From: Christensenella timonensis | Lineage (GTDB): Bacteria; Bacillota; Clostridia; Christensenellales; Christensenellaceae | DNA: 64,000 nt | Assembly (NCBI RefSeq): GCF_900087015.1 | Contig: NZ_FLKP01000002.1 | Location: 372,001 to 436,000, forward strand | Direction: 5' to 3' | Shown: piece after piece, positions 51,922 through 53,224 of the stretch | Layout: each line of letters opens with the position of its first letter | Numbering within the stretch: position 1 is the stretch's first letter | Position numbers and translations under genes: made by a program | Notes under the pieces: model-generated | The model's input: the letters and a program-made list of their open reading frames with translations, nothing else | Told to the model about the DNA's origin: nothing | The model's database searches: none

Positions 51922-51977
51922 TTGACTGCGTAACAATGTTATGTTATATTACAAGCATGAAACGTAACAATGTTACG
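51922..51977 (+). promoter_or_regulatory. Promoter with two palindromic operators upstream of the yhbD-like gene
   Basis: TTGACT (51922-51927), 17-base spacer, TATATT (51945-51950). Operator 1 CGTAACAATGTTATG (51929-51943, one mismatch) fills the spacer, and operator 2 CGTAACAATGTTACG (51963-51977, perfect) lies after the start site. They are 34 bases apart. Confidence 0.88.
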
Positions 51978-51995
51978 AAAGGAGGCGCGGCTGCA

Positions 51996-52625
51996 TTGAA
52001 TTTGATATCAAAAAAAGACCTGCTGGCACAAACGGGGATATCCTACGGGCAGCTTTACCGCTGGAAGAGGCAACGGCTGATCCCTGACGAATGGTTCATC
52101 AAACAGGCATCCTATACGGGACAGGAAACGTTTTTTCCCAGGGAACAGATATTGAGCAGGGTGCAATCGATCCTGGAGCTCAAGGATAAGCACTCTATGG
52201 AAGAGCTTGCGCGCATGTTCTCGCCGGAAACGGCAGGGACGCTGATCCCCGCCGGCAAGGTACAAACACTGCAGGAGATTGACAGCGAGCTGCTTGCATT
52301 GCTGGATGGCAACAAGGAAAATTATGCGTTTGCAGAGGCCGTCCTGCTGGCGATCCTGTCGCAGGCAGTGAAGGAAACGGAAATCCCCGTAAAAGAAGCG
52401 GCAGGCCTGTTCAGGAAAGGCGCGGCAGCGCTTTACAGCCGGAAGACAGCCGGACTGGCATGTGTGGTTTTTCGGGCGGACGGCAGCTATTATATCGCAT
52501 TTACCAGAGGCTTTGTTTTGTTCGGCGGCGATGTGGCGACGCTGGGGGTATGGCCCATGGACGAGTGGGCGGGAAAACTGAAAATAAGTGATCAAGGAAA
52601 ATGGAAACAAGGAGAAAAAATATGA
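51996..52625 (+). CDS. YhbD-like DNA-binding regulator (DUF4004)
   Basis: 209 residues. N-terminal MerR-like helix-turn-helix [26 protein letters not shown] with the WF motif, then a helical and a C-terminal beta domain ending in GVWPMDEW. The pattern is the YhbD/DUF4004 family. Start is TTG 51996 after an AAAGGAGG site; an upstream frame would run into the operator. It overlaps the bactofilin gene by four bases (ATGA), as in the yhbDEF locus of B. subtilis. It is probably the repressor of the twin palindromes. Confidence 0.85.
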   Translation: [209 protein letters not shown]

Positions 52626-53224
52626 ATGGGTTTACGATAAATGGCGTAGGAACGATAGACGGCGGGCAATTCAGTACGCTGAAAATAGACGGAACGGGAA
52701 GATGTACGGGCGACCTGGAGGCGGAAAGCATCGAGGTCGACGGGACGTTCAAGTGCGAAGGAAATGTCAAAACAGGACTTTTTGATTGCGATGGTTCTGC
52801 AAAGCTGCACGGGAACCTGGAAGCAAAGAAAATCGACGTCGACGGGCTGCTTTCAGTAAAAAGCGGCAAGATCGAAGCGGAAGAGATCGATTGCGACGGC
52901 CTGATCGATGTAGGCGGGGAGGTATCTGCGGATATCATCCAGGCGGATGGTTATATCCGCGCAAAAGAAATCGTAGGCGACAGGGTATCGATCAAATCCC
53001 ACATGGGCAGGCTCGTCAAGGTGCTCAATAAAAAAAGCGAGATCGGCATGATCGAGGCGACGACCGTAGATTTGGAGGGCGTATGGGCCAATACGGTAAA
53101 CGGCAGGGACATTACGATCGGGCCGCGGTGCGAGATCAAGACCGTGGATTGCAATGGCACGCTGTACATCGATGAAAAGGCGACGGTAGGCGAGATCACC
53201 GGGAATTTCCAGCGGCGCGGTTAA
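52622..53224 (+). CDS. Bactofilin family polymer-forming protein
   Basis: 200 residues made of repeated right-handed beta-helix turns of about 17-20 residues, with recurring Asp-Gly, as in GTIDGGQFSTLKIDGTG and EVDGTFKCEGNVKTG. This is the bactofilin (YhbE/YhbF-like) pattern; it forms filaments without nucleotide and can scaffold membrane or flagellar structures. AAGGAG before the ATG, overlapping the regulator by four bases. Terminator downstream. Confidence 0.88.
   Translation: MNGFTINGVGTIDGGQFSTLKIDGTGRCTGDLEAESIEVDGTFKCEGNVKTGLFDCDGSAKLHGNLEAKKIDVDGLLSVKSGKIEAEEIDCDGLIDVGGEVSADIIQADGYIRAKEIVGDRVSIKSHMGRLVKVLNKKSEIGMIEATTVDLEGVWANTVNGRDITIGPRCEIKTVDCNGTLYIDEKATVGEITGNFQRRG

Follow-up and report, generated by a model that had tools for sequence, protein, structure and literature searches.

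An operon in which a regulator represses itself together with a bactofilin is already known in kind from Cap0037/Cap0036 of Clostridium acetobutylicum. Cap0037 shifts its own promoter in EMSA, and in a mutant with the gene interrupted its own operon is up 50.7- and 68.6-fold (PMC5050335). DNase I footprints at the CA_P0037, adc, and sol promoters and an effect on 258 genes in the transcriptome accompany the claim that Cap0037 is a global regulator, and the footprint on its own promoter is an AT-rich 16-mer, ATATTTTCATATAAAT (PMC5050335). Cap0037 is not named YhbD in that work; its helix-turn-helix (HTH) is nevertheless that of DUF4004, and Pfam assigns Cap0036 to the bactofilins (47 bits). Among the loci compared here Cap0037 corresponds to L090/L196 (pSOL1 of G973), recognized by an AdhE2-like neighbor and by exact matches to the footprint sequence and to the published HTH and C-terminal peptides. 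In Bacillus subtilis, yhbD forms a putative operon with bacE (yhbE) and bacF (yhbF) (PMC4627819), and its position suggests a regulatory role (PMC12837462). The first-pass annotation of the locus described below had called the regulator of bactofilin loci poorly described. This holds for the operator, which seems undescribed, and for DUF4004, under which name a literature search returned no paper, but not for Cap0037, which has been characterized, or for yhbD, for which regulation has been suggested.

The window analyzed here is a 64,000-nt stretch of the 2.65-Mb genome of Christensenella timonensis, and the locus under study occupies positions 51922-53224 (Table 1). The main elements of the first-pass annotation were recovered: a near-consensus promoter (10 of 12 matches in a promoter scan, with a 17-nt spacer and the TG of an extended -10), one palindrome in the spacer and a perfect one after the start site, a first gene of the YhbD family, and a bactofilin gene behind it. 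Transcription is expected to start at about 51957. Because the terminator of the upstream gene stops just before the -35 element, the yhbD promoter is free-standing, and the terminator would insulate it. Translation of yhbD most likely starts at the TTG behind the AGGAGG; the Pfam match sets in at the following codon, and the start position is shared by relatives. The proposed translational coupling fared less well, since the ATGA that joins the yhbD stop to the bactofilin start (52622-52625) is present here but variable among relatives, most of which have a gap of about 6-25 nt.

Table 1. Features of the yhbD-bactofilin locus (positions in the window)
Feature	Position	Strand	Basis or remark
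Intrinsic terminator of the upstream metallo-beta-lactamase-fold gene	51884..51919	+	Hairpin with U-run, -18.4 kcal/mol, z -7.1
-35 element TTGACT	51922..51927	+	Promoter scan; aligns with TTKACA of relatives
Operator 1 (candidate), 19-bp pseudo-palindrome TGCGTAACAATGTTATGTT	51927..51945	+	Between -35 and -10; 2 mismatches to model AACnnAACAnTGTTnnGTT; includes CGTAACAATGTTATG (51929-51943)
-10 element TATATT	51945..51950	+	Promoter scan; extended -10 TG at 51942-51943
Operator 2 (candidate), AACGTAACAATGTTACGAA	51961..51979	+	Downstream of expected start; includes perfect 15-bp palindrome CGTAACAATGTTACG (51963-51977); one of two genome cores
Ribosome-binding site AGGAGG	51980..51985	+	Read directly from sequence
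yhbD, DUF4004 protein, 209 aa, TTG start	51996..52625	+	PF13171, 165 bits
Bactofilin gene, 200 aa, ATG overlaps yhbD stop	52622..53224	+	PF04519, 35.1 bits

The yhbD product matches DUF4004 (PF13171) with 165.2 bits against a curated cut-off of 27 (E 3e-48) and contains the conserved HTH of that family (ISKKxLL...); NCBIfam has no model for yhbD. The second product, with 35.1 bits to PF04519 against a cut-off of 27.9, is a bactofilin and is predicted to form filaments. Elsewhere in the same genome, a 987-aa open frame holds a sub-threshold bactofilin-like match of 24.5 bits (C2:2040828-2041049, minus strand). An AlphaFold2 model of YhbD has a mean pLDDT of 79 and is best at the N-terminus (about 85), where residues 1-79 are modeled as a MerR-type winged helix. 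In a comparison with the PDB, this domain superimposes on SoxR bound to DNA (2zhg; Z 10.3, rmsd 1.6, 69 aligned residues), GlnR-DNA (Z 9.5), MtaN-DNA (9.5), BmrR (9.0-9.2), and TnrA (8.8), with many MerR proteins at Z 8-10. A sequence search against solved structures found no relative. According to this model, the N-terminal domain of YhbD is a member of the MerR superfamily. The C-terminal domain modeled alone gave no fold match above Z 3.1; a match of residues 81-204 to CvkR, obtained with the whole model (Z 7.7), was not recovered in this way and was discarded.

Over 104 aligned sequences, among which 13 longer operon-head loci overlap in part with the main set, the conserved positions read AACgTAACAnTGTTAtGTT, i.e., AACnnAACAnTGTTnnGTT, a 19-bp pseudo-palindrome centered in the promoter spacer. 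The 17-mer GTAACAATGTTATGTTA at operator 1 (51930-51946) is found exactly here and across Bacillota. The right outer GTT of operator 1 also serves as part of the extended -10. The two copies in the window lie about 34 bp apart, and twin sites are found in 5/5 DUF4004-bearing genomes of its genus. The twin operators of the first-pass annotation are thus present in the window, but a second copy near the start, at a spacing of 28-40 bp, is a minority feature found mostly in clostridial loci. Site 2 often fits the 19-bp model without mismatch, though it lies outside every promoter element. In G004, both sites are present by the 19-bp model, about 300 nt upstream of yhbD. Genus g493 (L084-L089) has a weaker operator copy, such as AATAGAACATTGTTTCGTT, at about -167; it precedes the main copy by some 108 bp and possibly acts as a looping site.

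The reading that we favor, and hold to be very probable, is that YhbD, a MerR-superfamily protein, represses its own yhbD-bactofilin operon through AACnnAACAnTGTTnnGTT and the second copy after the start. A YhbD dimer would bind the 19-bp element and cover the spacer and the -10 with its overlapping extended part, and the bound protein would exclude RNA polymerase. The second copy, about 34 bp away beyond the start site, would tighten repression, and some signal read by the C-terminal domain would presumably relieve it. We infer that this YhbD binds these bases and that the effect here is repression; for Cap0037, others have shown promoter binding and strong derepression upon interruption of the gene. 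Points that count against autorepression are the position of the Cap0037 footprint (see below), a differently spaced palindrome, AAC-N8-GTT, in clade f11, and a weak -35 in some clades.

Activators are common among MerR-family proteins bound within promoter spacers; classical MerR promoters have a spacer of 19-20 bp and are activated by remodeling of the DNA. YhbD could likewise bind these sites as a MerR-type activator, or as a dual activator and repressor that remodels the promoter on a signal. The modeled MerR-like DNA-binding domain, the position of operator 1 between -35 and -10, which is the usual place for MerR activators, and the poor conservation of the -35 in genus g493 and clade f47 are consistent with this. 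However, most relatives share the 17-bp spacer seen here, another site is present beyond the start, and in the Cap0037 mutant operon expression is 51- to 69-fold higher (PMC5050335). On account of this ordinary spacer, the downstream site, and the mutant, repression is favored, and activation is considered unlikely.

The association of the element with yhbD is seen both within the genome and across the phylum. The first-pass annotation had proposed a search of the genome for further sites, and the core TAACANTGTTA has exactly 2 occurrences in the 2.65 Mb, both in the yhbD promoter; it is absent from G003, a congener without DUF4004. From the sequence, this operon is predicted to be the only target of YhbD in the genome of the window. 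Across the phylum, Bacilli and Clostridia included, 86 of 107 DUF4004 loci have the 17-mer GTAACANTGTTATGTTA in the 150 bp upstream, at a median distance of 56 bp, when up to 2 mismatches are allowed, and 56 of them have it exactly. The corresponding figures for control windows from the same loci are 8/1070 and 3/1070. A looser pattern, GTAACNNNGTTAC, was uninformative, as its remaining matches in the genome have a different center. TnrA and GlnR bind TGTNA-N7-TNACA; a match of this kind inside the promoter of the window is lost in relatives and was set aside.

It is conceivable that a different conserved regulator of Bacillota binds at the palindromes and that YhbD is no more than its target, as the computation gives an association and the Cap0037 footprint lies elsewhere. 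The genomes that lack DUF4004 speak against it. In family f212 (Bacillus-like), the exact 17-mer is found in 37/37 genomes with DUF4004 and in 0/84 without (Fisher p 6e-32), and in the order of G112 in 17/38 and 0/79, respectively. If one mismatch is allowed, the latter counts become 29/38 and 7/79, the matches in DUF4004-negative genomes being few and similar in number to those of a reversed control pattern. The exact palindrome element is hence found in 0/163 DUF4004-negative genomes of the two groups, where the occurrence at unrelated, TetR-family genes suggested as a refutation was sought; the pattern predicted for a site of TetR or another regulator was not seen, and this candidate was rejected. 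Two side observations concern sites away from yhbD. In G996, the exact 17-mer occurs a second time (L177:3605-3621; C4:207604-207620), with TTTACA-N17-TAGTCT as its promoter context, ahead of an ABC exporter gene pair, and this pair is possibly an extra YhbD target. On C4 of G751 (L176:3596-3652), twin operator-like sites lie near an RDD-family gene, an HD-domain gene, and a small ORF without a Pfam match.

Exceptions to the usual layout bear on the same question. No one-mismatch core was found within 150 bp upstream at 18 DUF4004 loci, and 11 of these have the element at the operon head, upstream of the bactofilin. Bactofilin-first loci with this placement are L178, L181, L182, L183, L189, L190, L194, L198, L199, and L201; in L179 and L180 the site is also at the operon head, with ABC-2 transporter genes between bactofilin and yhbD. 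The order operator, bactofilin, ABC-2 transporter genes, yhbD in these two (L179:1943-6777 and L180) has the appearance of a single operon, and in G953 (L180) yhbD is interrupted by stops while the operator is retained. In clade f47 (L020-L029), the core is kept before yhbD as an AAC-N3-GTT pair, an ArsR-type protein gene follows yhbD, and no bactofilin was found adjacent to it. Because the element sits at the operon head in the former loci and persists in f47, its distribution tracks the regulator, along with the unit transcribed with it, and not the filament gene as such.

In addition, site and DNA-binding domain appear to change together. The recognition helix of clade f47 has SYGT for SYGQ and its wing is altered, and the outer half-motifs of the site are lost; no site was found at paralogues with the altered helix ITSSQLYSWKR (L041, L042). 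There is also no site at yhbD genes without the HTH (L202, L200). Here one deletion of the promoter and the 5' end is the simpler cause, and these genes are thus weak evidence for a joint change. Co-occurrence, operon-head position, the core of f47, and the joint change of site and HTH together favor YhbD as the regulator that uses the element, and another regulator is regarded as very unlikely. The earlier suggestion that YhbD acts directly on its own bactofilin operon is strongly supported by co-occurrence, the site at the operon head, and the autorepression of Cap0037; its designation as a switch stays provisional.

The Cap0037 promoter contains the conserved 17-mer exactly, 52-68 bp before the DUF4004 match and inside TTGCAA-N17-TATATT. 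Cap0037 and its orthologue here thus share a candidate operator in their own promoters, the same exact 17-mer. The conserved element differs in sequence from the published footprint and lies about 87 bp downstream of it. Were YhbD a global regulator that binds AT-rich 16-mers at many promoters, as the footprints and the transcriptome of Cap0037 were taken to indicate (PMC5050335), the palindromes would be incidental. On the other hand, the palindrome hardly varies among the upstream regions of relatives, in which the AT-rich 16-mer was not observed; in G973 the palindrome occurs once at up to 1 mismatch, at CA_P0037, and the sol-adc region has none at up to 2 mismatches. An account in which the palindromes are incidental thus has little probability. 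Judged by sequence conservation, the element is a better operator candidate for Cap0037 than the published site; weak or secondary binding of Cap0037 at AT-rich DNA is possible, and autorepression is probably general to the DUF4004 family.

That the similarity comes down to a conserved promoter of the extended -10 type in which a palindrome arose by chance, a thought prompted by the overlap of the right outer half-motif with the extended -10, has a negligible probability and was rejected. The core is limited to two places in the genome, and the element recurs at yhbD genes phylum-wide. AACAnTGTT (element positions 2-10), which lies in the spacer outside the promoter consensus, is 96-100% conserved except at its center in the 104 sequences, and in several loci site 2, outside the promoter elements, has no mismatch to the 19-bp model.

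Within autorepression by YhbD, a more speculative and rather doubtful extension is that YhbD senses the state of the bactofilin filament, such that repression is eased or reinforced by unpolymerized bactofilin, or by bactofilin in complex with YhbD. Such sensing would be compatible with the usual pairing of the regulator with a filament gene and with the absence of further predicted targets; YhbD of clade f47, without an adjacent bactofilin, is a point against it. If true, the operon would hold a cytoskeleton pool constant, in a manner comparable to the feedback exerted by ribosomal proteins.

The operator found across the phylum, with its architecture and its connection to DUF4004 as a MerR-like family, appears to be new, as no description was found in a search mostly outside subscription papers. 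It provides a concrete candidate operator for DUF4004 and one regulator-site pair tied to bactofilin control across much of Bacillota. As the conserved element of the Cap0037 promoter lies away from the published binding site, that site and the global regulon merit re-examination.

YhbD shares with GlnR/TnrA, SoxR, and BmrR a winged-helix domain, according to the comparison of the modeled structure, and a palindromic site in the promoter. It differs from them in having another C-terminal domain and in its lack of a sequence match to solved structures; moreover, its site, TAACAnTGTTA, is unlike that of TnrA/GlnR. In the yhbD-yhbE(bacE)-yhbF(bacF) order of B. subtilis, yhbD likewise precedes bactofilins, and the copy of Bacillus licheniformis (NZ_CP021678.1) has the exact 17-mer upstream of yhbD; these loci differ from the window in having two bactofilin genes, a single operator, and a weak -35. 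Like the window, Cap0037/Cap0036 has a DUF4004 regulator gene followed by a bactofilin gene in one operon, with the 17-mer exact in both promoters; autorepression was measured in C. acetobutylicum. In contrast, the published site there is another sequence further upstream, a global role has been claimed, and one operator copy is present, as opposed to two in the window.
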